In this document: piece after piece, positions 7,441 to 35,152 of the stretch | Layout of the letters: each line of letters starts with the position of its first letter | Position numbering within the stretch: position 1 is the stretch's first letter | Source of the DNA: Isosphaera pallida ATCC 43644 | Lineage (GTDB): Bacteria > Planctomycetota > Planctomycetia > Isosphaerales > Isosphaeraceae | DNA: 64,000 nt | Direction of reading: 5' to 3' | Assembly (NCBI RefSeq): GCF_000186345.1 | Contig: NC_014962.1 | Span: 2,170,001-2,234,000, forward strand | The notes under the pieces: generated by a model | Database searches by the model: none | What the model was told of the DNA's origin: nothing | Seen by the model: the letters and a program-made list of their open reading frames with translations, nothing else | Translations under genes and position numbers: made by a program

Positions 7441-8658
7441 TTACGCCGGCAACGCCATCGTGCATTTCGGCTTGGACGACGCAAGCTTGGCCGAAGCTGG
7501 TTCGGCCACGAAACTCGAATTAAGCCAACGCGACTCGACCAGGCGATAAAAACCGAAACCAACCGCCAGCGAGGTCAGTGTCGCCGTTGGCACAACCACG
7601 AAGACCATCGCCCAATAGTGGGACAATCCCCATTCGATCAGTCCCGCGCCCACGATCACACAGACTGACAAGTGTGTCAAATAGATACTGAAACAACGCC
7701 GACCTAGCGCTTGGAATGGTTGCGACCATCTAGCCGAAGTCAAGTGTTTGTCGAACCGTCGAAGACCAATCAGGGTCAGCGCGAAGCACGAGGCGACCAG
7801 TTCCTCATGGAGATGATGAATCCAACCCACCACCCCCAACGCCACCAGGGCGGCCATGATGGCTCCACGCATCCGAAGCGCTTCGGGGTCACGGCGTGAT
7901 TCAAACCTCATCGACCAGTGAACCGCCAACCCGCAGGCAAACGCCATCCAATATTGCGTGAAGATGCCCTCAATCGCGCGGGCCCCCCCAATATCCCAAA
8001 TCACCACGCGATAGGCGGCGATCAGACAGGTCAAGACGACCAACGCGCGTTGGGGGTTGCGGGGAAACAACAATAATATGAGCGCACAAATCAAATAGAA
8101 CTGCTCTTGATGGCAAAGGGTCCAGATGACGCCCATATGCAAATGAGCCGTGGCATCCCCCCAACAGCGCCAACGCCAGGTCTCGGTCAGGGTCAGGTTG
8201 CCCACCCACTGCGCGAGCGATAGTTCCTCAGTCGGTGCGATGCGAATACCTTGCCCGGCGTGATACAGATGGCGCAGACCCAGCAGGTCGCACACACCCA
8301 AAACCGCTACAAAAAATCCTAGAGCGATCCAAAGCGGGGGAAAGGTCCGGCGCAGGCGTCGGGTCCAGAAGGTCAAGGGTCGCATCCCTTTGCGACTGGC
8401 TGAATCCAGCGCCGAGGCCAGGCAAAGCCCACTGATGACGAAAAACATCGCAGGACCCAACGCCTGGGATGAGAGAGCGGCCGTCAGCCAGCGAAACCAA
8501 CCTTCCCAGGAGACCGCAGCCAAATCGAGGTAGGCGCGACTCTCCATCCCTTGATGCAGCACCACCGCCGAATGGTCGAACACGACCATGAGGCAAGCCA
8601 ACCCCCTCCAAAGATCGAGCGAGCGATAACGCCCGGCCACCGCGTCTCCCGATCCCAT
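7441..8658 (-). CDS. Membrane acyltransferase, acyltransferase-3 (OafA/YrhL) family
   Basis: Predicted 405 aa with about ten membrane segments. The N-terminal run YRSLDLWRGLACLMVVFDHS has the catalytic-type His of the family, followed by ALGPAMFFVISGLCLASAL (the FFVLSGF-like motif) and a basic loop WTRRLRRTFPPLWIAL. Such enzymes O-acylate sugars of surface polysaccharides, peptidoglycan or lipids; the acceptor here is unknown. I placed the start at the ATG at 8658 because GGAGGTGAT (8662-8670) is a near-perfect Shine-Dalgarno seven bases upstream and the protein then begins just before the conserved segment. An ATG at 8688 and a TTG at 8718 are in frame but have no such site. Confidence 0.88.
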   Translation of the reverse strand: MGSGDAVAGRYRSLDLWRGLACLMVVFDHSAVVLHQGMESRAYLDLAAVSWEGWFRWLTAALSSQALGPAMFFVISGLCLASALDSASRKGMRPLTFWTRRLRRTFPPLWIALGFFVAVLGVCDLLGLRHLYHAGQGIRIAPTEELSLAQWVGNLTLTETWRWRCWGDATAHLHMGVIWTLCHQEQFYLICALILLLFPRNPQRALVVLTCLIAAYRVVIWDIGGARAIEGIFTQYWMAFACGLAVHWSMRFESRRDPEALRMRGAIMAALVALGVVGWIHHLHEELVASCFALTLIGLRRFDKHLTSARWSQPFQALGRRCFSIYLTHLSVCVIVGAGLIEWGLSHYWAMVFVVVPTATLTSLAVGFGFYRLVESRWLNSSFVAEPASAKLASSKPKCTMALPA

Positions 8659-9173
8659 CCCATCACCTCCAAGTCCGAGTTGGCTCATATGATCGCCAAA
8701 CTTGGCTCCAACGAGCAAATAACCTAAACTGATTGAGAGGGTTGGTCATCATCAAGACAGACAATCGAACTGGGGGGTGTTCGTCCCACGACGACTCCAG
8801 AAACACGGGTCGTAGTGTGGGCGGAGTCGGCCGAGCCAACACCCCAATCCTTGCCGCTGCGTTGTGCTTTGCGACTTACGGATGGATTAGCCATCCGTCC
8901 CCTTGACCAAGAGAGGCGACAACCGCGCCGACTTGGTCCCGGAATTTTTGAAAAGTCATGAAGCAATCGGGGGTTCCTCAGCCCTCGAGAGCCACAACAA
9001 GGACCGTGACCGGAATGGACACCGACGCCTTGAGAACGGAGGATCGGCGGGTTAGCCTAGCCACCGGCTTCTGTTCCCCGGCTTATCGCGGCCGGTGACG
9101 CAACGGCTGACACTCAACTCAGGGTCGTCTTGAACACGACGGGTCTTTTCTTTCGTTGCGAGGCGTTCCGCTC
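8659..9173. other. Non-coding 515-bp divergent region before xylA
   Basis: No open frame here looks real. It must hold the promoters of the acyltransferase (minus) and xylA (plus). A perfect 8-bp hairpin lies at 8878-8898 (ACGGATGG, loop ATTAG, CCATCCGT). A looser CACCGGC/GCCGGTG inverted repeat lies around 9060-9095, just upstream of xylA. Neither is followed by a T-run; either could be an operator or leader structure. I see no recognisable XylR-type site. Confidence 0.4.
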
Positions 9174-10487
9174 ATGGCCGAATTTTTTCCGGACGTGCCC
9201 AAAATCCGATATGGTGGTCCCACGTCCAAAAACCCTCTTGAGTTCAAACACTACAATCCCGATGAGGTGGTCGCAGGCAAGACGATGCGCGACCATCTCC
9301 GGTTTTCAGTGGTTTACTGGCACACCTTCACCAATCCCCTATCCGACCCATTCGGCGTGGGCACGGCGGTTCGTCCCTGGGACGACGGCACCAAAACCGT
9401 GGAAAACGCCCAACGCCGCGTTCGCGCCGCCTTCGAATTCTTCGAGAAGCTCGGCGTCCCATATTACGCCTTCCATGACCGCGACGTGGCCCCCGAGGGA
9501 GCGTCGCTCAAGGAAACCAACGCGATTCTGGATCAAGTGGTGAAGGTTCTCAAAGAGGAACAACAGCGCACCGGCGTCAAGCTGCTTTGGGGAACCGCCA
9601 ACCTTTTTTCCAACCCGCGTTACATGCACGGGGCGGCCACCAGTCCGCATCTCGACTCGTTCGCCTTCGCCGCCGCTCAGGTCAAGAAGGCGATGGAGGT
9701 GACCCTGGAGCTTGGAGGTGAAGGCTACACCTTCTGGGGGGGGCGGGAAGGCTACTCAACCCTGCTCAACACTGACCTGAAACGCGAGTTGGATCATCTG
9801 GGACGATTCCTGCACATGGCGGTGGATTATAAAAAGTCGATTGGTTTCACCGGTCAATTCTACATTGAGCCCAAACCCAAGGAACCCACCAAGCACCAGT
9901 ACGACTCCGACGCGGCTGCTTGCTTGAACTTCCTCCGTCAGTACAACCTACTGGACCACTTCAAACTCAACCTCGAAACCAACCACGCCACCCTGGCCGG
10001 TCACGAGATGATGCACGAAATGGTCACGGCGATCGCCGCTGGAGCGTTGGGGTCGATCGACGCCAACACCGGCGATCCGCTGTTGGGCTGGGACACCGAC
10101 CAATTCCCCACCTCGGTGTATCTGACGGCACAATGCATGGGCTGCATCCTCGACATGGGCGGTTTCACCACCGGCGGGGTCAACTTCGACGCCAAGGTGC
10201 GCCGCGAAAGCTTCGAGCCAATCGATCTGTTTTACGCCCACATCGGCGGGATGGACGCCTTCGCCCGCGGCCTCAAGATCGCCGACGCCCTACGTCGGGA
10301 TGGTCGCTTGAGCCAGTTCCTCGCCCAACGTTACCGGAGCTGGGATTCGGACCTGGGCCGCAAGATCGAGGCAGGCCAAACCGGGTTCGCCGACCTGGAA
10401 ACCTACATCCTGGCCAAAGGGGATGTGGCTCCAATGGAGTCGGGTCGCCAAGAGTTGCTGGAGAACATCGTCAACGAGTTCATTTGA
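9174..10487 (+). CDS. xylA: Xylose isomerase
   Basis: Predicted 437 aa, the usual class II length. It interconverts D-xylose and D-xylulose (and glucose/fructose more slowly). Active-site features are visible: His101 and Asp104 in FHDRD, then the WGGREGY segment, the metal-ligand Glu in [15 protein letters not shown], and WDTDQFP with the second metal site. Everything needed for activity is present. The ATG at 9174 gives [16 protein letters not shown], the normal N-terminus; the frame is open 18 bases earlier at an unsupported start. No xylulokinase or xylose transporter lies nearby, so the gene stands alone. An imperfect 20-bp hairpin about 54 bases past the stop is the likely terminator. 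Confidence 0.97.
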
Positions 10488-10540
10488 GCCAATTCCTCAC
10501 ACGTGCGGATTCACCGGCTCTCACGAACCTCGTGGAAGAA

Positions 10541-10584
10541 GGCGCGGCGGGATCAGGTTTAACAAAACCCGACTCCACCGCGCC
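10541..10584 (+). terminator. Long imperfect hairpin after xylA
   Basis: Arms 10541-10560 and 10565-10584 pair over 20 positions with three mismatches and one G-U, closing on the loop AACA. The outer seven pairs are all G/C. The following bases GTCGTCTTC are only mildly T-rich. This probably ends xylA transcription and isolates the WXG100 cluster. The rest of the 338-base gap 10488-10825 shows nothing else I can support. Confidence 0.6.
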
Positions 10585-10825
10585 GTCGTCTTCACCCCGA
10601 CTCGCCCTGCCGTATCTCTTCGCGTCGCAAGCAACGGGGAGCTAGAATCAAGCCAAGACCTGTCGCGGCGCGATGGCCAAAACGGGAAGTCAAGGCCGTC
10701 GGCGACGTCGCGCCGATTCCGATCCCATCCTACTCGAACTGATTCACAACGGCCGCGCTGCGACCCGACGCCCCCCGCTGGTTCACTCCGGATCGCCTCG
10801 ATTCGACTCTAGGGAGAAGGTTACC

Positions 10826-11098
10826 ATGTCCCAAGCGATTGTCGATCCGGCGGAACTGCGCCGGTTCGCCCAACACCTCAAGACCTTCCGGTTCGAGTTG
10901 GAAGGTCAACTCGCCTCGCTGCACGGCCAACTCGTCGGACTCGGGCAAACCTGGCGCGACCGTGAGCATCAGAAGTTCGTCGAGGAGTTCGAGGAGGCCA
11001 TCAAACAGATTGACCGCAGCATGGAGGTTGTCAACCAATACATTCCCTTTCTGCTCCGCAAGGCCGAGCGGATCGAGGAGTATCTCCAACAACGTTGA
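10826..11098 (+). CDS. WXG100-like small helical protein (1)
   Basis: Predicted 90 aa, no signal peptide, no Cys. Two long amphipathic helices flank a central turn at TWRDREHQKF: Trp43-Arg44-Asp45 sits where WXG100/ESAT-6 proteins have Trp-x-Gly, followed by F51 and an acidic helix, and the length is right. WXG100 proteins are substrates or partners of FtsK/SpoIIIE-type type VII ATPases; a gene for such an ATPase lies three genes downstream on the same strand. The C-terminus (ERIEEYLQQR) lacks a clear Tyr-x-x-x-Asp/Glu export signal. The ATG at 10826 follows AGGGAGAAGG, a strong site; the frame is open upstream to 10673 without similarity. Assignment rests on size, Trp motif and context. Confidence 0.75.
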   Translation: MSQAIVDPAELRRFAQHLKTFRFELEGQLASLHGQLVGLGQTWRDREHQKFVEEFEEAIKQIDRSMEVVNQYIPFLLRKAERIEEYLQQR

Positions 11099-11165
11099 TC
11101 CCACTCCAAACGAAGCTTGACCCGAGCGCAGGGTTCCCGTAGGTGGAATCGGGAGGATCATCCTC

Positions 11166-11810
11166 ATGGCGTCCGAAGGTGGCGGGGCGTGGGTCCTGTC
11201 GATCGAGCAGTTGGAGACATTTCGGGCCTCGCTGGCCAAGTTCCAGGAGGAGGCCAAGGCAGCGATCACCTCGGCCGATCTGGAAGTTCGCCGAGCGCTT
11301 CAATGGCTTCATCAGGACCAACCCAGCCGCTGGAACGGCGAGATCCGCCGCACCCGTCAGGAACTCGCTGAGGCTCGCACCACCTTGACTCGCAAGCGAA
11401 TCGCCACCGCCGAGGGACCGCCGCGGGACACCCTCGAACGCGAGGCGCTTCAAGCAGCCGAGCGACGGTTGCGCCACGCCGAGGACCAACTCGCCAAGGT
11501 CAAACGCTGGATCCCCTTGCTGGAACGCGCGGTTCAGGAATATCAGGGCCAATCCCGTCCTTTGGCCGAAACCCTCGCCCACAGTGTTGATGAGCAGCTG
11601 CATCACCTATCCGCCCTGATTCACGCCTTGCAGCGCTATCTCGACACCGCCGGTCCCCGCAGCGTGTTCGTTCAGGGCACACCCAGTCTCCCTACCAGCT
11701 CGCCCACCACAACCACCGCCTCCCCATCGGACGATCCACCACCATCCTCCCCCCCCCTCCCTCCAGACGCCGACGAAGTTCTTCCTGCCTCCAACCGCCA
11801 TTCAACCTAA
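11166..11810 (+). CDS. Hypothetical coiled-coil protein of the WXG100/FtsK cluster
   Basis: Predicted 214 aa; I do not recognise a named family. Residues 10-40 (WVLSIEQLETFRASLAKFQ) begin a helix, and residues 60-160 are almost wholly alpha-helical and charged, with heptad-like spacing (EIRRTRQELAEARTTLTRKR, then AERRLRHAEDQLAKVKRW). The last 50 residues are disordered Ser/Thr/Pro. No signal peptide or membrane segment. It lies 67 bases after the first WXG100-like gene and 64 before the second, so it is likely a partner, chaperone or substrate of the same export system, which is inference from position only. GGGAGGATCATCCTC precedes the ATG at 11166, supporting the start. Confidence 0.75.
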   Translation: MASEGGGAWVLSIEQLETFRASLAKFQEEAKAAITSADLEVRRALQWLHQDQPSRWNGEIRRTRQELAEARTTLTRKRIATAEGPPRDTLEREALQAAERRLRHAEDQLAKVKRWIPLLERAVQEYQGQSRPLAETLAHSVDEQLHHLSALIHALQRYLDTAGPRSVFVQGTPSLPTSSPTTTTASPSDDPPPSSPPLPPDADEVLPASNRHST

Positions 11811-11874
11811 AACCCTTTGGATCGACCACACGACGTCGCCCCGCTCGTCTCGTCCTTGGGAGTCTGCAAAACTC

Positions 11875-12096
11875 ATGCGCACCGCCAACCTCATCTCTGC
11901 CTCGACGCGGTTGGACAACGCGATCAAAACCCTAGATCGTTGTTGGGACACCCTGCGTGATTCGTGGCGTGATCGCAAGGCCAACGAGTTTGAAACCGAA
12001 TTCCTGGCCCCTCTCAAACGTCAGGTCCAAGGTACGGTCCAGGCGATGGCCGAGTTGGGCGAGTTGCTCGAACGCATGTACCGCGACTGCGAGTGA
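11875..12096 (+). CDS. WXG100-like small helical protein (2), with YxxxE tail
   Basis: Predicted 73 aa. Like the first WXG100-like protein it has a helix, a turn with Trp31-Arg32-Asp33 (SWRDRKANEFETEF) and a second helix; the block W-R-D-R/x-x-x-x-F is shared by both. It ends in Tyr69-Arg-Asp-Cys-Glu73, which fits the Tyr-x-x-x-Asp/Glu signal of mycobacterial type VII substrates. At 73 residues it is shorter than typical WXG100 proteins. GGGAG lies upstream of the ATG at 11875. The two small proteins may form a heterodimer, as EsxA/EsxB do, but this is inference. Confidence 0.72.
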   Translation: MRTANLISASTRLDNAIKTLDRCWDTLRDSWRDRKANEFETEFLAPLKRQVQGTVQAMAELGELLERMYRDCE

Positions 12097-12280
12097 AACC
12101 TTGGTTGCCTCGGTCGGGAACGCGGATGCGTCGCCGTGGGTTGATGTTCCGCGTTGTTCGCCTTCCCGACCTGGCTTTTCCTGATTCAAGGCTACGGTGT
12201 TGCGTTGGGCGGGGAACCGCCACCCCGCTCCATCCCGTTTTGCCACCTCCTCGTTCCTTCTCCTTGGTCGGAGTTCGCCC

Positions 12281-15200
12281 ATGCTTCCCGATCTGAATCC
12301 ATCCGAACTCCGGTCCGCTTCCGCCTCACGCTCTTGGCATCACGATTCCGGTTCAGTTGAGGCGTCGGAATGGTCTAGGGAAGACGGCCAATTCAACCCC
12401 ATCTCAGTGATGAGTCGAGTGAGCCGTCTGGTTGAGGAGCTGGAAGCGCTCTGTCGGCGCAGAGCCGACGCAGAACAGTTGGCGTTGACCGAATATCCGG
12501 CCAGATTGGTCGAAGTTAGCCAGGAAGAACAACAGCACCGTCACCAGGCCGAAGCCGCCGAACGCGAAGGCCGACGACGCGCTGAGGAGTCGCACCAACA
12601 ACGAGTTGCCGCCATCGAAGCCCGGTTCGCCGAGGAAACCAACCGCCTGACGGAATCGAATCAAGCCAACCTCGCCAAGCTCGCTGCCAAGTACGATCAA
12701 GCCGAAGCCAAAGCCCGCAAATCAGCCGAGGAAGCCATCTGGGAGGCCGCCACCCTCTGCGAGTCGTCCCAGGCCGCCGCCCACGCCAAGAAGGAGGCGA
12801 CCCTCGCTACGCTGAAGGAGGCTCTGGAACGCCTCGACGAGTGCGAGAACGCCGCCGGCAAACTCGCCCCCGCGGCAGCGCGCCCGCCTGGCAAGAACCT
12901 CGCCCCGGATCCGGGCGAGACCCTGTCCGACGACGAGACCTCCGCCGACGACTTGTTGGCTCGAGTCAACCAGAACATCGACAATCTGGACCGTCGCCTG
13001 GCCGCTTTGGAGAGCAATCCCCTCGTCGTCTGGTGGCCGGTTCGGACGCTGATGGTTGCGGGTGTCGGCTCGGCGCTGGTCTGGGGCCTGAGCCTGGGCG
13101 GTCTGGTCGCGTCGCTGAAGCCCCTCGCCGCTTCAGTGATCAGTGGAGGACTCGCCCTCATGGTTCTCGGTGGTTGGATCGCCCGAATCGCCGCCGTGGC
13201 CAAGTTCGTCCAACCCTGGCGCGCTGAGGCGGAGGACCTGCGACGCCTCATCTCTCAGACCCGGACTCGTGCAGAGTTCGAAGCGCGGCGTGATCAATGT
13301 CGCGCTGCCGAACGCCGCGACGCCGAAACCCAGCGGGCCGAAACGACGTTGGAGCGGCGTCTGACCGAACTGGCCACCCGCAGGACCGAGGAACGCGAAG
13401 CCACCCGGCGGGCTTACGACAACTTGATGGCCGAAGCCCGCCACCGCCGCGAGCGCGACCTCGCCACCAGCCAAACCACTCTCCAAACCGACCTCGCCAA
13501 GGTCGCAGAACGACTGAGCCAAATCCAGGCCGAACGAGAGCAACGTTTCGTGGCACGCCGGCGCGAGTTGGAACGCCTCCAAGCCGAGAACCACGCGGCC
13601 ATGATCCGTGACTGGACCGAGGGGTTGGCTCGCCTTGAGGCCGAACGCGCCGCCCTCATCTACCTGGTAGAGACCTTCTGCCCAGATTGGTCGGCCTTCA
13701 GGATGGAGGACCACCCCCCGCGTCCCCTACCGACGACCCGACCGCCGGCGATCCGGTTCGGCCAACTGACCATCGACCGCGCGACGATGGAACATGGCCA
13801 CGCCCGCCATCCCGACCTGATCGGTCCCGAAGGGGACGGCCCCCTGCGACGGTTCACCCTCCCCGCGGTGGTCGATTTTCCCGACCACGCCTCAATCCTG
13901 GTCAAAACCTACGACCGCGGCCGAGCCGAGGCGGTCGCCTTCCTTCAAGGTTATATCCTCCGACTGCTCACCGCGCTGCCACCCGGCAAGGCGCGGTTCC
14001 TCTTCCTGGACCCGGTAGGTCTAGGCGAGAGCTTCGCCGCCTTCATGCATCTGGCCGACCATGACGACCAACTCGTCACTAACCGCATCTGGACCGAACC
14101 GCATCACATCGAACAACGGCTGGCCGACCTCGCCGAACATATGGAAAATGTCATCCAGAAATACTTGCGTAACGAATTCGCCACCATCGACGACTATAAC
14201 CTCAAAGCCGGTGAGATTGCCGAACCTTACCGCTTCCTCGTGGTAGCCAACTTCCCGGCCAACTTCAACGAAACCACCGCGCGACGTCTGGTCAGCATCG
14301 CCGCCAACGGCGCACGCTGCGGCGTCCATACCCTGATCAGCGTGGACTCCCGCTTACCCTTGCCTTCCGGAGTGTCCCTGGCCGATCTGGAACCCCACGC
14401 CGTCAACATCACCACCAAAAGCGGCGAACTCGTCTGGAAGCACCCGATCCTCGGCCGCTGGCCTCTCCAGTTGGAGCGTCTACCCGAATCGGAACTGGTC
14501 AATTCGATGTTGAACCGCGTGGGTGAACAGGCCAAACTTTCCAAACGGGTTGTCGTCCCGTTCGATATCATTGCCCCCCGCGACGATGCTCTCTGGACCG
14601 AATCCAGCCGCGACCGTCTGGAACTGCCGATTGGACGCTCCGGCGCATCCAAGCTCCAAACGCTGCGGTTGGGCGAAGGCACCTCGCAGCATGTGCTGAT
14701 CGCGGGCAAAACCGGCTCAGGCAAATCTACCCTGTTGCACGCCCTCATCGTCAACCTGGCGCTACGGTTTGATCCCGACGAAGTGGAACTCGACCTCATC
14801 GACTTCAAGAAGGGGGTGGAATTTCAAGTTTACGCCCGTTTGGAACTGCCCCACGCCCGAGTCGTGGCAATCGAGTCGGAACGGGAATTCGGTCTGAGCG
14901 TGTTGCAACGTCTCGACCAGGAACTCAAAAATCGGGGCGAACGCTTCCGCGCCGCCGGCGTTCAAGATTTGCCTGCCTTCCGCCGCGAATGTCCCGGTGA
15001 ACGAATGCCTCGGATTCTGCTCATTGTGGACGAATTTCAGGAATTCTTCGTCGAAGACGACAAACTCGCGCAGGAAGCCTCGTTGTTGTTGGATCGTTTG
15101 GTCCGCCAAGGACGTGCCTTTGGCATCCATGTCCTGCTGGGTAGCCAAACCCTGGGCGGAGCCTACTCACTGGCCCGCAGCACCCTGGGACAAATGGCAG

Positions 15201-16555
15201 TGCGGATCGCGTTACAATGTTCCGAGGCCGACGCGCATTTGATCCTCAGCGAGGACAACAGCGCCGCGCGGCTGTTGTCGCGTCCCGGCGAGGCGATCTA
15301 CAACGACGCTAACGGCCTGCTGGAGGGCAACACCTTCTTCCAAGTGGTCTGGCTCTCCGAGGAGGAACGGGAGGAACGTCTGCAGAAGGTCGCCCGCTTG
15401 GCGCGGGAACGCCACTTCAACCGTTCCGATCGTTTGATCGTCTTCGAAGGTAACGCGCCGGCGAGTCTGGAAGGCTGTCAACCCTTGATCGACTGGGTCC
15501 AGGCGGACGATTGGCCCGACCCGGCCAGCCTGCGGGTTCCCAAGGCGATTCTGGGCGAACCGATCGCGATCAAGCCGCCGACGATGCTCAGCTTCCGCCC
15601 CCAAACCGCCGCCAACACCCTGATGGTCGGTCAGGCCGATACCGCAGCCCTCGGCGCATTGTGTGGCGCGGTGCTGTCGCTGGCGGCCCAACTCGCTCCC
15701 TTCCCCCCGTCCGACCCTACACATCCCGAGACGCCCCGCGCCCCGCGTTTTACCCTCATCAACGGCGCGACCATCGAATCGCCCCAGCAAGACGCATTCG
15801 ATCGTCTGGCCCGTCATCTGCCCGGACCGGTCGCCCTGGGCCACGCCCGCGACGCCGCCCGCTTGATCGCCCAAGTCGGCGACGAACTTGATCGACGTCT
15901 GCAAGCTCCCAACCAAGATCATCCCCCGATCTTTCTCGTGATTTATGGCCTGCAATCCTTGCGCGACCTCCGCAAGTCGGACGACTTCGGCAGCTCCTCG
16001 TCGTTTGGTTCCTCCTCGTTCAGTTCCTTCAGCTCCTTCAGTTCCTTCGGTTCGGAACGCGACCCGGACGAACCACCACCACCCCGGAAAATCCCCCCCG
16101 CGGAACGCTTCTCCTCGATCCTCCGCGAGGGGCCGGCGCTAGGAATCCACACCCTGGTCTGGTGCGATAGCCTCAACAACCTCAACCGAGCTCTGGAACG
16201 GGCCGCGCTTCGTGAGTTCGACCTCCGCGTGTTGTTCCAGATGAGCGTCAACGATTCATCCAACCTGATTGACTCGCCAGCGGCCAACCGTCTGGGCAGC
16301 CACCGCGGCTTGTTCCACACCGAGGAACAAGCCGCGCCCGAGATCTTTCGACCTTTTGGCCCCCCCTCCGACGCCTTCCTCGCGCGGTACTCAGCGCTGA
16401 TGGCACGAAAACCCTCGCCGTTCCAAACCAGTAAGTCCGACCATCGCGCTCACGGCGACCCCGTTCACCAATCGGACGCCTCGCCCGATCGTCATCCCTC
16501 CGACGTGCCCGAGCTTGACCGGGATGCGCCGACCCACACCGATCGCTCGGAATGA
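12281..16555 (+). CDS. FtsK/SpoIIIE-type ATPase, EssC/EccC-like
   Basis: Predicted 1424 aa. Order of parts: coiled coil rich in Glu/Ala/Arg (about 45-220), two adjacent membrane segments (about 256-306), a second coiled coil (about 310-455), a linker, then an FtsK/SpoIIIE motor with Walker A GKTGSGKS (809-816) and Walker B LLIVDEFQEFF (Asp917/Glu918). A second motor-like domain starts near 1110 but its P-loop is GQADTAALG at 1117, without Lys-Ser/Thr, so it cannot bind ATP normally. It also carries a Ser/Phe repeat loop near 1237-1255. One active plus one degenerate motor recalls type VII EssC/EccC and not the chromosome translocase FtsK, since the FtsK gamma domain is absent. It sits 184 bases after WXG100-like genes. 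I take the ATG at 12281; an ATG at 12410 is an alternative. Confidence 0.88.
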   Translation: MLPDLNPSELRSASASRSWHHDSGSVEASEWSREDGQFNPISVMSRVSRLVEELEALCRRRADAEQLALTEYPARLVEVSQEEQQHRHQAEAAEREGRRRAEESHQQRVAAIEARFAEETNRLTESNQANLAKLAAKYDQAEAKARKSAEEAIWEAATLCESSQAAAHAKKEATLATLKEALERLDECENAAGKLAPAAARPPGKNLAPDPGETLSDDETSADDLLARVNQNIDNLDRRLAALESNPLVVWWPVRTLMVAGVGSALVWGLSLGGLVASLKPLAASVISGGLALMVLGGWIARIAAVAKFVQPWRAEAEDLRRLISQTRTRAEFEARRDQCRAAERRDAETQRAETTLERRLTELATRRTEEREATRRAYDNLMAEARHRRERDLATSQTTLQTDLAKVAERLSQIQAEREQRFVARRRELERLQAENHAAMIRDWTEGLARLEAERAALIYLVETFCPDWSAFRMEDHPPRPLPTTRPPAIRFGQLTIDRATMEHGHARHPDLIGPEGDGPLRRFTLPAVVDFPDHASILVKTYDRGRAEAVAFLQGYILRLLTALPPGKARFLFLDPVGLGESFAAFMHLADHDDQLVTNRIWTEPHHIEQRLADLAEHMENVIQKYLRNEFATIDDYNLKAGEIAEPYRFLVVANFPANFNETTARRLVSIAANGARCGVHTLISVDSRLPLPSGVSLADLEPHAVNITTKSGELVWKHPILGRWPLQLERLPESELVNSMLNRVGEQAKLSKRVVVPFDIIAPRDDALWTESSRDRLELPIGRSGASKLQTLRLGEGTSQHVLIAGKTGSGKSTLLHALIVNLALRFDPDEVELDLIDFKKGVEFQVYARLELPHARVVAIESEREFGLSVLQRLDQELKNRGERFRAAGVQDLPAFRRECPGERMPRILLIVDEFQEFFVEDDKLAQEASLLLDRLVRQGRAFGIHVLLGSQTLGGAYSLARSTLGQMAVRIALQCSEADAHLILSEDNSAARLLSRPGEAIYNDANGLLEGNTFFQVVWLSEEEREERLQKVARLARERHFNRSDRLIVFEGNAPASLEGCQPLIDWVQADDWPDPASLRVPKAILGEPIAIKPPTMLSFRPQTAANTLMVGQADTAALGALCGAVLSLAAQLAPFPPSDPTHPETPRAPRFTLINGATIESPQQDAFDRLARHLPGPVALGHARDAARLIAQVGDELDRRLQAPNQDHPPIFLVIYGLQSLRDLRKSDDFGSSSSFGSSSFSSFSSFSSFGSERDPDEPPPPRKIPPAERFSSILREGPALGIHTLVWCDSLNNLNRALERAALREFDLRVLFQMSVNDSSNLIDSPAANRLGSHRGLFHTEEQAAPEIFRPFGPPSDAFLARYSALMARKPSPFQTSKSDHRAHGDPVHQSDASPDRHPSDVPELDRDAPTHTDRSE
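16019..16045 (+). repeat. Tandem 9-bp repeat encoding Ser-Ser-Phe in the FtsK-like gene
   Basis: Three copies of TTCAGYTCC in a row at 16019-16045, within a wider Ser/Phe stretch at about 15985-16055. The copies are in frame and add a low-complexity loop to the degenerate second motor domain. Copy number may vary between strains. Confidence 0.6.
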
Positions 16556-20825: not shown

Positions 20826-21658
20826 TGCGCGGGATGACGAACCCTCCGGGCTCGACCTGACGGAGTCGCGTGGTTCGTCGCGCGACCACGCCGCCATCTG
20901 CCGATAAACCGGGTGTCGAGCGATCCGTCGGGGAGGAGGCCGGATGGATCGCTCTTAGCTTCGCCTTGGAAACGTCACGCGATTCGGTTCTGGTCTCGCA
21001 TTGTCCGGCTCTCCGGGTGTCGTCGAGGTGGATTCGAACGTGGCCCTTTCGTGATTCGGCTGAGTCGTTCCCAGCACGCCGCGTAGGCGTGGGTCGATGG
21101 CGCAGGCGCAAGAAGGTCGGGTATGGTTGGGATTTCCGCCCCGAACTGCTTTGTTCGGGCAGGTCGCAATTGGAACGGGCTTGAGGCCAACATCGCCTCA
21201 CGTTCCGAGATTGAGATTCGTTGGAAACCGTCCCAACCGCTCCCGCCCTACTTTGAGGCCAATGTGTCCCGACCACCGAGGAAGACCCGCCTCCTTTCTC
21301 TGTCGCGCGTGAGAGAGCGGAGCGCAATCACGGAAAGTGCCGTCTTCGAATTCGATCCGAGAGGCTTCGACGTCGTTCGGAAGCGGAACGTTTGGTCGTC
21401 CGGTTGTGGTTCCATCCGTCCGACCCTCCCCGTTTGGATTGGAGGATTGGACCCCGTCGCTTGACTCAGCACGGAGGGTGACTCGCGTCGTTGAACCGCC
21501 GCCGTCGTTTCGAGGACGACGGCAGCCCTCGCGCTGGCGTCCAACGACGCGGTCTCTGGACACGACTTGGCTCGTCCATGCGTTCTTGCTCGCCAAGGAC
21601 GATTCGGATCGTCCCGCCGCCGAATCGCCTTTTGCCAACCGGAAAGGTCGTCCTCCCC
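20826..21658. other. Non-coding 833-bp region with tandem hairpins
   Basis: Many overlapping frames are open, but none has consistent codon use. Two hairpins lie close together: CCCGAAC-TGCTTT-GTTCGGG at 21140-21159 (perfect 7 bp) and a two-part stem at 21172-21206 (GGAACG...CGTTCC around GAGGC/GCCTC). They could be part of a small structured RNA or terminator. A tRNA-like GATTCGAACG near 21031 does not fold as a tRNA. Confidence 0.35.
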
Positions 21659-22141
21659 ATGTTCGAGTCGAACCACGCCGCGGTCGGATCTCGCCGAGCC
21701 GCTTTATTGGGTCTGGGTGTCGCAAGCGACGACGGCGTTCGACGGTGTTTGACCGCGGAGCATGCCGTGATCGTCGGGGGGTCCGCTGAAGACCACGCCA
21801 TGATGATCGAGACCCTGTTGCGTTTGGAGACCGAACTGGAACGCATGGGTCGGCATCTCGGTCAACTCTCCCCCGACGAATTGATCGAACTCGCCTGGCG
21901 AATCGACTCGCCCGAGTTAATGGAGGCCGCTCGTCGCCTCCGCTTCGCCCTCAAGCGCAGGGGGTTGCGCTTCGAGGAGTTGACCGCCGATAACCTCACC
22001 CAACTGGCCAGTGAACCGTTCGATCCCCATCTGGACGACTTCGCCGACGAATTGAATTCCGAAGCGGCGGTCAATCCCACCGCCGCCTCCCCATCACCCC
22101 CTCGCAACGACATCGACATCGACCCGCTCTTGGCCCGCTGA
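21659..22141 (+). CDS. Hypothetical helical protein
   Basis: Predicted 160 aa; not recognised. Residues 50-130 are helical with good codon bias: METELERMGRHLGQL-like segment, LSPDELIELAWRIDSPELME, then ARRLRFALKRRGLRFEELT. The N-terminal 45 residues (ESNHAAVGSRRAALLGLGV) are weak and the true start may be the ATG of MMIETLLRLE further in. The last 25 residues are acidic and Pro/Ser-rich. No membrane segment. GGAAAGG lies upstream of the chosen ATG at 21659. A 10-bp inverted repeat follows 139 bases after the stop. Confidence 0.6.
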   Translation: MFESNHAAVGSRRAALLGLGVASDDGVRRCLTAEHAVIVGGSAEDHAMMIETLLRLETELERMGRHLGQLSPDELIELAWRIDSPELMEAARRLRFALKRRGLRFEELTADNLTQLASEPFDPHLDDFADELNSEAAVNPTAASPSPPRNDIDIDPLLAR

Positions 22142-31332: not shown

Positions 31333-33897
31333 TCAAGAACTGCGGTGAAACCGGATCAGGACTCCCAAGATCACTAGCAGGGTCGCGCCGGCCACGGCCA
31401 ACCCCCAAGCGACCTCGGGAGGCTCGTACACCACGTCGATCCAACGGGGACACGGTGGGCCAGCGGTGGTTTCGTCACGGTTGGCCACCACCACGAAGCA
31501 TGGGCCCAGTTCGGGCGGGCACGGCTCCAAGGGCAGGGCTCGGCCCTGATCGTCGCGTGCCTTCCAACCGGGATCGAAGGTCTGCCGCACGAACCACCGT
31601 CGCTCGGCGGGTTGAGTTGGTCCCGAGTTTTCCAGCCCTGGCCCGAACAGGCACGGATCTGGTTCGATCCGCCAGTGACCCGACCGCAACCGCGTGACTC
31701 GGTCCCGCCAGGGTGGTCTGCCGTCCAACGGGCGCACGGTGGGACCCGGCGGTCGCAGCCAGGCGATCCAAACCGGCCGGCCTCGACGGCCAAGCGAAGC
31801 GGACGGCTCGACAACTTCCCAGGCGTCCAAACGTGGTCGGATGGTCTCGGGCGGAGGAGTGTCGGCCACCAACGCCTCGACGCCCGCTGCCTCCAGACGT
31901 GTCCAGCCCCGCTCGACCCCCGCCCAGGTGATGTCGCGGCGACTGGTGCGGTTGGTCCCACTGGTCTTCTCAAACAATGGTTCGAGAAACGCCAACATGG
32001 CGGTCTGTTCAATCGAATCATAGTTCCTCAAATCGGCCAGGCCAAACCGCATCGCCAGATTGGGCGGCAACTCGGCTCCCAAGCCAACGACTCGCCCACC
32101 CTCGCCCAGCCGCTCCCGAAGACGGCACAGGGTCGGCGGCCACGGCTCGAACCGCGCCAAGTCGGGATCGATCAACGGATGCTGACCTTGAACCAGCCGG
32201 GCCAGATCCAACCCAATCGCCCCCCCCAACACGACCGCTGACCAAACCAATGTCGTACCCGCCTTGGGGGTTTGCAAACGAAGCCTCAGGGCCCACCATC
32301 CTGCTAGAGCAAGACATCCGGTGGTGAAGAAATGCCAGATTCCAAAGGTCTGAATCGCTTCTAAGCGACGAGCGACCCGAATCTCCAACTCGGCCGGTTC
32401 GATCCGCGGATTGACCGCCAGGGCGTCGGCCCGAATCCAACGCTCCCAAGAGGGACCCGCCAGAGCCACCCCAACCGCGACGACCCAAACCAACACGCCT
32501 CCCGCCAGTAACATGCGACCAACCCATGCCGCCTGACGCTTCGACCAGGGCAGGGGATCACGGCGACACCACGCGTCCCAACCCAAACCGCCCAGGATTG
32601 CCAGAGCGAAGAGACACCACAGCGTCAAACGGCGATGGTCAATCGCGTTGAGAAGCGGCACCGCCCGCACGAGGTTGATCGCCGGAGGCACCTCCAAAGC
32701 GACCAACCCCCCCGCCACCCCTACGCCCAAGGCGAACCATGCCGGGCGGATCGTTGACCACGCCACGCCTGGTCGAACGCGACGATGATCCAAGTCGTTC
32801 GACGCGACGCGACGCGACGCGGTCCAACCTAGAGGTGCCAACACCATCAACGTCAGCATCCCGGCGAATCCACCGGCCGACTCGTTGAGGTTGTCGGCCC
32901 CAAGAGGACGCGCCAAATTGGGATGGCCTCGGCGCTGACTGCCCAACGCCAGTGCATCCACGAACCGAATGGCTTCGATCCATCGGGGTGGCACCAACGC
33001 GAGCGGCCAGGGGCGTTCCGCGGCGCGATCCTCCCACACCGGTGAACGCCCAAGGTAGGCCAGCAAGGGCAGCCAGACCGCGGCACTGAGACCGATCGCC
33101 AGCAGAAACCCCGCCAGACCGGCCCTCAAACCGCGACGGTCGGACGCGCGGAACAGTCCCCAAGCAGCGGTCAATATCCAAACGTGCGCAGCGGTCTGCA
33201 CATGACCGCCTAGACAGGAAAAGGTCAACGGCAACGCCAACACCGCCGACCGTTGCGCTGAGGGATGTTCCACCAAACGATCGGCTGCCAGCAAACACCA
33301 AGGAAGCCACGCCGACGACGAGGCGACAGTGTGGTGCAGCCAAAGGGTTGTGAAGCCGCCGAAGGCATAGGCCAAGCCGGCGAACCAACGACCCGGCCTC
33401 TGCAGACCCCAGCGATCTGCCAGCAGGAACATTCCCCAACCTGACACCATCCAACGCGCCCAGAGAACCCAGGCAAAGGTGAAAGGGGGTTGACCCAGAT
33501 AGGAAATCAGATGAAACGGATCCAACACCGCCGATTGGGCATTGGCCCAGTGCGGCGCGCCCAAGGCGACCCGATCGTTCCAAAGCGGCAACCACCCTTG
33601 CCAAAGCGCTGCCCGATTGAACTCGACCCACGGCTCGAACTGAAGGGTGGGATCGGTCTGAAGCCGGTTGCGCGGCTCATAGGGCAACACCGCGCCCGGC
33701 TCGGCCAACCCCTCGAAGACCGCGGTGGCCAGCACCCAATCGCTGGGACTGGCCACCTTGAACCCCACCAGCGCCGGCCCCAGCGGCCATCCGGCCAGCA
33801 ACCCCAAAACGATCAGAAAGGCGATCGTTTCCCACCGTCTTGGTTTGGTCCACGAGGACGCGGCCAAGATGGACCCGCGGTCACAAGGAGTCGGCAT
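31333..33897 (-). CDS. Large polytopic membrane protein, YfhO-like
   Basis: Predicted 854 aa. A first membrane segment (IAFLIVLGLLAGWPLGPALV) is followed by a loop with FEPWVEFNRAALWQGWLPLW and NAQSAVLDPFHL, then ten or more membrane segments, and a C-terminal soluble domain with RWFVRQTFDPGWKARDDQGR and a final membrane helix. The loop and the C-terminal pattern match YfhO-family proteins, which act in polyprenyl-linked glycosylation of cell-surface polymers (lipoteichoic acid in Firmicutes). The substrate here is unknown. Its ATG lies inside the end of rsgA (17-base overlap), so it is probably translated from the same message. Confidence 0.8.
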   Translation of the reverse strand: MPTPCDRGSILAASSWTKPRRWETIAFLIVLGLLAGWPLGPALVGFKVASPSDWVLATAVFEGLAEPGAVLPYEPRNRLQTDPTLQFEPWVEFNRAALWQGWLPLWNDRVALGAPHWANAQSAVLDPFHLISYLGQPPFTFAWVLWARWMVSGWGMFLLADRWGLQRPGRWFAGLAYAFGGFTTLWLHHTVASSSAWLPWCLLAADRLVEHPSAQRSAVLALPLTFSCLGGHVQTAAHVWILTAAWGLFRASDRRGLRAGLAGFLLAIGLSAAVWLPLLAYLGRSPVWEDRAAERPWPLALVPPRWIEAIRFVDALALGSQRRGHPNLARPLGADNLNESAGGFAGMLTLMVLAPLGWTASRRVASNDLDHRRVRPGVAWSTIRPAWFALGVGVAGGLVALEVPPAINLVRAVPLLNAIDHRRLTLWCLFALAILGGLGWDAWCRRDPLPWSKRQAAWVGRMLLAGGVLVWVVAVGVALAGPSWERWIRADALAVNPRIEPAELEIRVARRLEAIQTFGIWHFFTTGCLALAGWWALRLRLQTPKAGTTLVWSAVVLGGAIGLDLARLVQGQHPLIDPDLARFEPWPPTLCRLRERLGEGGRVVGLGAELPPNLAMRFGLADLRNYDSIEQTAMLAFLEPLFEKTSGTNRTSRRDITWAGVERGWTRLEAAGVEALVADTPPPETIRPRLDAWEVVEPSASLGRRGRPVWIAWLRPPGPTVRPLDGRPPWRDRVTRLRSGHWRIEPDPCLFGPGLENSGPTQPAERRWFVRQTFDPGWKARDDQGRALPLEPCPPELGPCFVVVANRDETTAGPPCPRWIDVVYEPPEVAWGLAVAGATLLVILGVLIRFHRSS

Positions 33898-35152
33898 CGC
33901 CTTCCAGCGGTTGTTGGAAAAAGAGCTTCAAGTAACTTTCATAGCGGCCATCATGAATCAATCCCTCGGCCACCGCCTCCTTCACCGCGCATCCCGACTC
34001 GTGGGTATGGGTGCAGTCTGGAAAACGGCAGTGGGGAATCAACGGGCGGAACTCCGGGAAATAGCCCTCGATCTCGCTAGGCACCACTCCCCAAAGCTCG
34101 AACTGGCGCAGTCCCGGCGTATCAACCACAAACCCTCCCGAGGAGGTGCGGATCAATTCGGCGGTGGTGGTCGTGTGTTTCCCTTTGTGCGTCTGGCTAG
34201 AAACCTCGCCCACTTTCAGGTGGATCGCCGGATCGACGGCGTTGATCAGCGAGCTTTTCCCCACTCCGCTTTGACCGGAAAGCGCGGTGATGCCCCGTTG
34301 CAGAATCGTTCTCAGACGATCCAACCCCACCCCGCTTTTGACCGAGGTGACGAGGGTTTCGTAGCCGAGTTGAGCGTAGAGCCCCACAATCCATTGATAA
34401 TGGGCTAGATCGACCAAATCAGCCTTGTTGAACACGATCACGGGACGGACTCCACCCCGCTCGGCCGAGATCAAATAGCGGTCAATCAAGCCGGGTTTGA
34501 GTCCCGGATCCTCGAAGGCCGAGACGATCAACAGCTGATCGACATTCGCGACCAACACATGCTCGCGCTTGCGATAACCGCGGGTGACGATGCCGCGACG
34601 GCGTTCCACTTTTTCGATGAAGCCCTCGCTCCCCCCCGGGCGATCGGGACGAAACCAGACCCGATCACCCACGGCTAGCACGCCGCGGCCGTCGATCGCC
34701 AGGGTTTTGAGCAGGCGGCGAAGTCGGCAACGCACCAACCGGCCGTCACCGTCCGCTTCGACGACCGAGTTGAGACCGTGGATCCGCACCACCCGACCTG
34801 GCTCGCAGCGGCTCAGATCGACCGCCAGCATGGCGAAGGGTTCCAGAGCGTCGTCAGGGGTGTCGCCGCGTGTCTCTCCGTCTTGTTCCTCTTCGGCGGT
34901 GGTCACAATCGTCCGCTTGCGAGACAGGTCGCCCCGCGCCCGAACCCGCTCCGAACTGGTGAGCCGATCCTCCAACTCTCCCAGTTCCAGGGCATGGAAC
35001 GAGTGGCTTCCCGACGCCGGAGAAGCGACCTTCGGCGCGTCTTCTCGGAGGTCGTTTTGAAAGTCGCGGGTCAGGTCGTTGTCGCGGGTCCGCTTGCCGC
35101 GGTTTTTGCGAAACTCGACCCGGACCTTGCGTTTGCCTTGCGATTTGGACAC
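33881..35152 (-). CDS. rsgA: Ribosome small-subunit GTPase RsgA
   Basis: Predicted 423 aa. RsgA is a late 30S assembly GTPase with circularly permuted motifs, and all are visible: NKAD (G4) comes first, then GQSGVGKSSLIN (G1), then DTPG (G3). The C-terminal zinc finger HCRFPDCTHTHESGCAVKEA is complete. The OB-fold domain covers about 110-180. The basic N-terminal tail (KSQGKRKVRVEFRKNRGKR) matches other RsgA proteins. I choose GTG at 35152 because GGAG lies seven bases upstream and the tail begins there; a TTG eight codons earlier is in frame. It overlaps the following YfhO-like gene by 17 bases. Confidence 0.95.
   Translation of the reverse strand: MSKSQGKRKVRVEFRKNRGKRTRDNDLTRDFQNDLREDAPKVASPASGSHSFHALELGELEDRLTSSERVRARGDLSRKRTIVTTAEEEQDGETRGDTPDDALEPFAMLAVDLSRCEPGRVVRIHGLNSVVEADGDGRLVRCRLRRLLKTLAIDGRGVLAVGDRVWFRPDRPGGSEGFIEKVERRRGIVTRGYRKREHVLVANVDQLLIVSAFEDPGLKPGLIDRYLISAERGGVRPVIVFNKADLVDLAHYQWIVGLYAQLGYETLVTSVKSGVGLDRLRTILQRGITALSGQSGVGKSSLINAVDPAIHLKVGEVSSQTHKGKHTTTTAELIRTSSGGFVVDTPGLRQFELWGVVPSEIEGYFPEFRPLIPHCRFPDCTHTHESGCAVKEAVAEGLIHDGRYESYLKLFFQQPLEGDADSL

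Follow-up and report, generated by a model that had tools for sequence, protein, structure and literature searches.

A four-gene cassette of WXG100-type proteins and an EccC/EssC-related ATPase in Isosphaera pallida and other Planctomycetota

The four genes and their products

The stretch analyzed here, called the window throughout, is a 64,000-nucleotide segment of the Isosphaera pallida ATCC 43644 genome (contig NC_014962.1, positions 2,170,001 to 2,234,000 of the forward strand; the genome comprises 5,529,304 bases in two contigs), and our subject is a group of four open reading frames (ORFs) that stand in a row on its plus strand at positions 10826–16555. We name them A, C, B and K in their order along the DNA, and their coordinates and principal features are listed in Table 1. 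A reading made from the letters alone, referred to below as the sequence-only reading, had described two WXG100-like proteins, a coiled-coil-like protein and an EccC/EssC-related ATPase on one strand, and this layout is borne out. The four genes form a cassette that is a single-copy unit kept by part of the Planctomycetota, and we favor, at a probability of about 0.5, its interpretation as a domesticated, membrane-anchored type VII-like protein translocase, with export as the presumed activity.

Table 1. Coordinates of the cassette genes and their features in the window
Feature	Position	Strand	Remarks
A: WXG100 protein of HP0062 type	10826..11098	+	90 aa; PF06013 above cut-off
A W43-R44-D45, at WXG motif position	10952..10960	+	46/46 members; HP0062 likewise WRD
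C: long helical hairpin protein, tail modeled at low confidence	11166..11810	+	214 aa; AlphaFold2
C hairpin part, residues 11-161	11196..11648	+	pLDDT 87-98 in blocks of ten
C tail, residues 162-214, Pro/Ser/Thr-rich by eye	11649..11807	+	pLDDT 56-77 by blocks
B: short WXG100-like protein, W24, W31, D33	11875..12096	+	73 aa; PF06013 below cut-off
K: EccC/EssC-related ATPase	12281..16555	+	1424 aa; FtsK_SpoIIIE E 3e-32
K hydrophobic hairpin, two transmembrane-like stretches, approximately residues 258-297	13052..13171	+	hydropathy 1.74, 1.63
K first RecA-like domain, degenerate	13850..14542	+	AlphaFold2 model of residues 479-1400
K second RecA-like domain, with Walker motifs	14618..15352	+	model; FtsK_SpoIIIE match 776-957
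K Walker A GKTGSGKS	14705..14728	+	G-x-T-G-x-G-K-S in 81/81
K Walker B D-E	15029..15034	+	both residues invariant, 69 aligned K
K third RecA-like domain, degenerate	15542..16405	+	AlphaFold2 model

The A protein matches the Pfam family WXG100 (PF06013) with an E-value of 3e-7 and 31 bits, against a cut-off of 27.3, and the family also matches all 46 aligned A members (of 51 A proteins in the locus collection described below) at E-values up to 0.01. The Trp-x-Gly of the hairpin turn is not found in A, and an invariant W-R-D stands at that position in all aligned members. When the A profile is compared with proteins of solved structure it aligns with HP0062 (3fx7; 1.3e-11), EsxB (1.5e-7), SAG1039 (4e-4) and EsxA (1e-3); A thus matches solved WXG100-type hairpins by sequence, and the failure of the small proteins to fold as such hairpins, which the sequence-only reading had named as the result that would speak against it, did not occur for A. 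The second half of the proposed WXG100 pair is less secure, as B matches PF06013 below the cut-off (E 5e-4, 20.6 bits) and only five of 54 B members (of 59) match at all. W31 and D33 are nevertheless invariant among the B proteins and W24 is present in at least 90% of them; the comparison of the A and B profiles gives a probability of 52% over 35 columns, suggestive of weak kinship, and a match of B to EsxA is likewise weak (E 0.05). At their C-termini, A ends in Y-L-Q-Q-R, with Y86 and L87 invariant, and the window B has YRDCE, but its tyrosine is not conserved among B proteins.

The AlphaFold2 model of C (47 of 57 C proteins) has a mean pLDDT of 85.3, with helices at residues 11–80 and 89–161. 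The window C has no Pfam family above the cut-off, its profile gives no convincing alignment with A or B, and its model has no Foldseek match at E 0.001 or better; VIA-align returns generic coiled coils with Z up to 11.3, which is not above the chance level for long helices. Membership of C among the LXG or PPE proteins was considered and rejected, since neither a profile match nor a Foldseek match was obtained, and its likeness to these proteins is therefore one of shape alone. At 240 residues or fewer, 52 of the 57 C proteins would have no room after the hairpin for a toxin domain of the usual size; among these 52, the domain scan covered the window C. Four of four long C proteins of Phycisphaerales carry an Imm33-like domain, and the Chloroflexota protein at locus L107 is a true C with a long tail that has no family match above the cut-off. 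The tails of this protein and of the C-position protein at L119 have no solved relative to E 1 and no Pfam family above the cut-off, and a D..ExK-like motif is seen by eye only.

The large K protein is the putative motor of the cassette. The sequence-only reading had suggested a profile search of K with PF01580, and this does return FtsK_SpoIIIE (Table 1). Residues 479–1400 model as three RecA-like domains with a pLDDT of 84.5, and both Walker motifs lie in the middle domain only, the other two domains being degenerate; the Walker A motif is complete in every K of the collection and the D-E of Walker B is invariant in those aligned. Four NTPase domains are not seen in K, with three modeled and no Pfam ATPase match to residues 1–478, which lie outside the model. 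This N-terminal part is charged, reads as coiled coil by eye, and encloses the hydrophobic hairpin. As judged by hydropathy rather than by a transmembrane (TM) predictor, the window K has two TM-like N-terminal stretches, and 70 of 74 complete K proteins have at least one TM-like segment ahead of their ATPase part; K is probably a membrane-anchored ATPase by virtue of this hairpin. Two of the four complete K proteins that have no TM-like segment are from Chloroflexota. In the Chloroflexota K proteins of L107 and L096, repeats that look by eye like WD40 replace both the charged stretch and the TM-like hairpin, and on this visual assignment the N-terminal part of K reads as an exchangeable module.

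Conservation of the set

The ATPase part of K, run against Genome Taxonomy Database (GTDB) contigs, yielded 340 relatives, and the best 80 of these together with the window make up the 81 loci in which A, C, B and K were sought using profiles grown from the loci. Judged by their titles, the 80 relative loci are almost all from Planctomycetota, with three from Chloroflexota. The profiles identify A in 51 loci, C in 57, B in 59 and K in all 81, with A, C and B jointly present in 51 and the A-C-B-K order also found in 51. Thirteen of the 30 loci without A have less than 1 kb of sequence ahead of the K frame and six carry C and B; nine lack A, C and B despite 2.5 kb or more of sequence ahead of K, and for eight of these nine K-alone loci A is found elsewhere in the genome (the exception is L118). 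Among the three Chloroflexota genomes, A has two matches in one and none in the other two. The start of B overlaps the stop of C as ATGA in 24 of 57 loci, although not in the window, and this arrangement suggests co-translation. Clustering of the flanking ORFs gave no further family in more than 10 of the 81 loci; the commonest is Ser/Thr kinase-like by eye and occurs in 10 loci, at varied distance and on both strands.

The same association is evident at the level of whole genomes. In a sample of 392 Planctomycetota genomes K is present in 62, A in 60, C in 60 and B in 61, and the 330 genomes without K have FtsK-level matches or none, from which it follows that the cassette is not essential to the phylum. 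The co-occurrence of the four genes that the sequence-only reading had proposed to check is very strong, with A, C and B present in 59, 59 and 60 of the 62 K genomes, respectively (Fisher 3e-65 for A and K). K occurs without A in G219, G336 and G377, without C in G107, G219 and G336, and without B in G107 and G336; outside the K set a sole genome, G296 (61% complete), has A, C and B and not K. Each positive genome has one match apiece for A, C and B, a count based, in most cases, on scoring each genome's top 13, 8 or 15 candidates. The genes need not be adjacent: G024, G105 and G356 all retain A, C and K, although these lie on one contig at distances above 160 kb, and in G105, whose genome is a single contig, no two of the four genes stand together. 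In other scattered sets, and in two of these, B still lies beside C (G024, G137, G194, G356, G307, G152 and G251). Genes that are scattered yet all kept in the genome present the pattern expected of a working complex.

The phylogeny of K is broadly in keeping with its hosts. An unrooted tree of 69 K proteins, built by a quick method and with 37 of the 69 rows labeled, has seven label changes for five taxa compared with a mean of 21.4 after shuffling, and places the Phycisphaerales and the Chloroflexota in one group each; these numbers indicate inheritance chiefly by descent, overlaid by duplication or transfer. A second Isosphaeraceae cassette, composed of C, B and K without a nearby A, is present at L098, L084, L080, L105 and L115, and its K proteins form one clade. 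Singulisphaera acidiphila has both this A-less cassette (L098) and a full one (L043), with only one A.

Kinship of K and relatives of the cassette

The NCBIfam models that match K are EccCa (9e-33), EssC (5e-29), EccCb (5e-21) and FtsK (9e-6), all far under their curated cut-offs, and the core of the L107 K gives the same ranking (EccCa 9e-43, EssC 4e-39, FtsK 3e-9). Comparison by sequence with solved structures places EccC (4nh0, 9e-35) before FtsK (9e-13), as does Foldseek with the K model (EccC 2e-30, EssC 5e-18, FtsK 3e-11). In a tree of the active domain (37 rows), which has several long branches and for which the bootstrap had not settled, K and its plasmid and fecal relatives form one group (91/83) lying outside both the first ATPase domain (D1) of EccC/EssC and FtsK, while a Rothia FtsK-like protein groups with EccC/EssC D1. 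Approximately unbiased (AU) tests reject neither the union of K with the type VII D1 domains (p 0.31) nor that with FtsK (p 0.36). As far as these alignments resolve it, K is a clade of its own whose sister is either EccC/EssC D1 or FtsK. The clustering of the ATPase with DNA-translocating FtsK, which the sequence-only reading had regarded as the outcome contrary to its proposal, did not appear, in that K is not inside the FtsK clade, although the joint clade is among those not rejected.

Relatives of K also occur outside the phylum. Of 78 plasmid records matched at E 1e-14, the 40 listed include five clear K relatives outside the phylum with 33–45% identity and E-values of 2e-37 or better, the other listed plasmid matches being at 3e-20 or weaker; K is also present on a fecal phage-labeled contig. 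Caballeronia pSBC2-5 has, in order, a vWA gene, A, a gene for a 436-aa protein, a 113-aa gene, a 76-aa gene, K, and CARF, vWA, PP2C, kinase and AAA genes. Helicobacter pNHP190012_1 (L123) has A, a gene for a 340-aa WHH nuclease-domain protein, a SUKH-1 gene, a 77-aa gene and K. In the Rhodococcus AH-ZY2 plasmid K adjoins TerD genes, and Deinococcus and R. pseudokoreensis have small genes downstream of K. Among these relatives A is recognized by its profile in Caballeronia (4e-26), Helicobacter (7e-16), Rhodococcus AH-ZY2 (7e-11) and Deinococcus (2e-7), with no match in R. pseudokoreensis or the fecal contig. The C profile has weak matches in two relatives (5e-4 and 6e-3) and none in the others, so that beyond the Planctomycetota and Chloroflexota the correspondence of the C position is one of location rather more than of sequence. 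On the Rhodococcus plasmid with TerD genes (L120, 7706–16821), K lies close to two of these and to a DUF475 gene, which links it to tellurium-type stress systems.

A viral origin of the element was considered and set aside, as there are just three IMG/VR matches, 28–30% identical and over part of the ATPase only. The best PADLOC matches, SspH and mad8, were likewise discounted, as they cover only the shared ATPase domain.

The four-gene kit is already in print for other bacteria, and the planctomycete form differs from it in its TM-like K, its short C and the lack of a recurring extra gene. The closest description, in PMC11090510, which cites Anantharaman et al. 2012, is that of the TerY-P/CoCoNuT loci. 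These have an EssC-like ATPase with three domains, the central one alone predicted to be active, and a long N-terminal coiled coil, together with a coiled-coil nuclease and a pair of WXG100 proteins of which one has no motif. All of this has its counterpart here, with B as the WXG100-like second protein, except for the nuclease, since the coiled coil is fused to one there and the window C has no recognized nuclease. As that text has it, the TerY-P/CoCoNuT ATPase is without TM helices and its set sits between vWA genes, whereas the K of the window has a TM-like hairpin by hydropathy and its set stands alone on the chromosome; secretion is still considered likely there. In Helicobacter, HP0062 is described as a hairpin with WRD at its turn that forms a four-helix bundle by dimerization, and its gene as clustered with one of the FtsK/SpoIIIE type (PMC3397514); HP0062/HP0066 is referred to as a 'WXG100 secretion system' (PMC4978471, PMC3397514). 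An HP0062-type A with WRD and an FtsK/SpoIIIE-type ATPase are thus common to both systems. The order of pNHP190012_1 parallels the cassette, with A, the C position, an extra gene, a small gene at the B position and K. It differs in the WHH nuclease at the C position followed by SUKH-1, in that the C and B profiles match neither the C- nor the B-position gene, and in a K that is shorter and without a TM hairpin ahead of the ATPase part.

The relationship to established type VII secretion systems (T7SS) is looser. The survey of T7SSc–j by Garrett et al. 2024 (PMC11217815) covers Actinomycetota and Bacillota and reports ATPases with four NTPase domains and the presence of EsaB in nearly all systems. 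T7SSa to T7SSj have a core of a WXG100 protein and a membrane-bound EccC/EssC-type ATPase, to which A and the EccC/EssC-related, probably membrane-anchored K correspond; however, the four NTPase domains, the nearly universal EsaB/TsxB and the further components noted there were not found linked to the planctomycete cassette, which differs further in the WRD of A and the three modeled K domains. With FtsK/SpoIIIE, K has the fold of the active domain in common, but it differs in its separate clade, its two extra degenerate domains and its WXG100 partners, and FtsK proper is encoded elsewhere in the genome, apart from K. The sequence-only reading had called the locus ESX-like type VII; the EccC/EssC kinship upholds this at the profile level, and the separate clade, the three domains, the WRD, and the absence of a linked EsaB/YukD and of a YxxxD/E tail do not. 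It had also described type VII export as classically Gram-positive, thereby overlooking the diderm relatives in print, namely Helicobacter HP0062 with its FtsK-like neighbor and the WXG100/EssC-like extension of the TerY-P/CoCoNuT loci. Of two earlier surveys, one from 2014 has WXG100 proteins almost confined to Actinobacteria and Firmicutes with few in Chloroflexi (PMC3935865), and one from 2012 lists T7SS in Firmicutes, actinobacteria, chloroflexi and other lineages and toxin domains in planctomycetes (PMC3482391). We found no paper on a WXG100/EssC-type system in Planctomycetes in the open-access literature.

The sequence-only reading had further stated that EccB/D, EsaA/EssA/EssB and mycosin are lacking. 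This holds for YukC/EssB, which was found in none of 15 cassette genomes while its control matched in B. subtilis; EccB was also found in none of the 15, with its control likewise silent everywhere, and EccD, EsaA, EssA and mycosin lay outside the genome-wide searches. No EsaB/YukD-type protein is encoded at the locus. A YukD match is present in two of the 15 genomes, and the one that was placed, in the I. pallida genome, is 254 kb from the cassette. It lies in C2 1919000–1937000 (L143), where at approximately 7846–12020 a YukD-type gene (E 6e-14) is followed by E2-like (UQ_con), E1-like (ThiF) and JAB genes; this is a predicted bacterial ubiquitin-like conjugation operon, unlinked to the cassette.

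A proposed type VII-like translocase and its rivals

In the translocase interpretation K would form a ring, as is usual for its superfamily, anchored in the cytoplasmic membrane by the hydrophobic hairpin and hydrolyzing ATP by its middle domain alone. A may act as a core WXG100 dimer, by analogy with HP0062 or EsxA, and C and B may pair as a second helical complex of a shape comparable to LXG-Lap or PPE-PE. The inactive domains of K on either side of the active one would serve as binding sites for A and C-B, and the helical set would be moved across the cytoplasmic membrane or held at its periplasmic side; the transport, its direction and its end point are all presumptive. The cassette would share a common ancestor with those of other bacteria, some of which have a nuclease at the C position, and would have been mostly inherited by descent in single copy, with toxin loss postulated rather than later gain. 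The toxin-bearing relatives elsewhere, set against the single-copy, short-C set in Planctomycetota, look like the domestication of a conflict system. A more ambitious version, a toxin-free and largely vertical type VII-class export machine of diderm-type Planctomycetota, in which the ATPase is the sole membrane component of a housekeeping translocon with A and C-B as its cargo, can be put forward only tentatively.

Several observations weigh against a translocase of this type. The A proteins do not have the YxxxD/E tail, and no LXG effector was found over the cut-off in the 15 genomes, with one weak match at E 0.008, so apart from A, B and C themselves no cargo suggests itself. No outer-membrane component turned up, in searches of which none was aimed at one. 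Compared by VIA-align, the active domain has FtsK as its top structural match (Z 25.7, 262 residues, rmsd 2.8), ahead of EccC (Z 23.7, 490 residues, rmsd 7.4). B lies away from C in G105, G087, G365 and G216, and on the K tree the Isosphaeraceae take 5 label changes, the Pirellulales 3 and the Gemmatales 2, which makes some transfer or duplication likely. Finally, a convincing TM hairpin ahead of the ATPase part is absent from all five plasmid K proteins, with a single borderline stretch, at residue 17, in that of L120; the family can therefore work without this anchor.

This last observation, together with the company that the relatives keep, suits an intracellular conflict or stress device, in which a cytoplasmic or membrane-bound A-B-C-K complex would sense damage or phage, with no export or by another route. 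The Caballeronia cassette sits within a vWA-CARF-PP2C-kinase cluster, the Rhodococcus plasmid K is beside TerD genes, a nuclease and a SUKH-1 gene take the C position in Helicobacter, and the published sets are tied to TerY-P and restriction loci, although one of the sources leans to secretion. We consider such a device rather doubtful for Planctomycetota, where K is of the TM type in 70 of 74 proteins, no flanking family (the variably placed kinase-like one included) exceeds 10 of the 81 loci, and the set is single-copy and grouped by taxonomy, unlike a mobile defense island. A DNA translocase, with K pumping DNA across the membrane or septum and a clamp or adaptor role for A, B and C, would account for the VIA-align ranking and is compatible with the AU result for FtsK; it is unlikely, given that profiles, sequence search and Foldseek favor EccC/EssC, that the genome already encodes a separate FtsK, that two of the three modeled ATPase domains are degenerate and that WXG100 partners are a type VII hallmark.

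It is quite improbable that the cassette is a strict member of a known T7SS class (ESX or T7SSb–j) with unrecognized partner genes elsewhere in the genome. EccCa and EssC are indeed the models that K matches best, and the silent EccB control and the parts outside the genome-wide searches leave room for such partners, but neither EssB nor LXG exceeds the cut-off in the 15 genomes, YukD is present in just two and here falls within a ubiquitin-like operon, and K, with its three modeled ATPase domains, is not inside the EccC/EssC D1 group. An unrelated ATPase standing by chance beside two small helical proteins can be dismissed for practical purposes, since chance neighborhood is ruled out by the conserved gene order and the co-occurrence of A and K (59 of 62) reported above. 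If the type VII-like translocase is the correct interpretation, type VII-like machinery is widened beyond the two Gram-positive phyla of the 2024 survey, and a four-gene version without any other recurring partner makes the abilities of an ATPase and WXG100 proteins on their own testable.

Four of the five neighboring genes scanned with Pfam encode a TIM barrel, an XdhC protein, a DEAD helicase and an acyltransferase, and there is no vWA gene among the five. The fifth, at 21491–22141, has EccE as its sole Pfam match, over 34 residues and below the cut-off (E 0.0016), and we read this as chance. Across the genome PF01580 finds one strong FtsK in addition to K, plus a weak match (E 9e-4), while the PF06013 matches are A, B and two weak ones at E up to 1. 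A weak WXG100-like match (E 0.03) is located at C2 2797739–2797945 of the same genome (L037, L144), within a 567-aa open frame. No tandem repeats were found in the whole window at a score of 60, and the AT skew reaches 0.32 at 32001–34000, far higher than elsewhere in the window.

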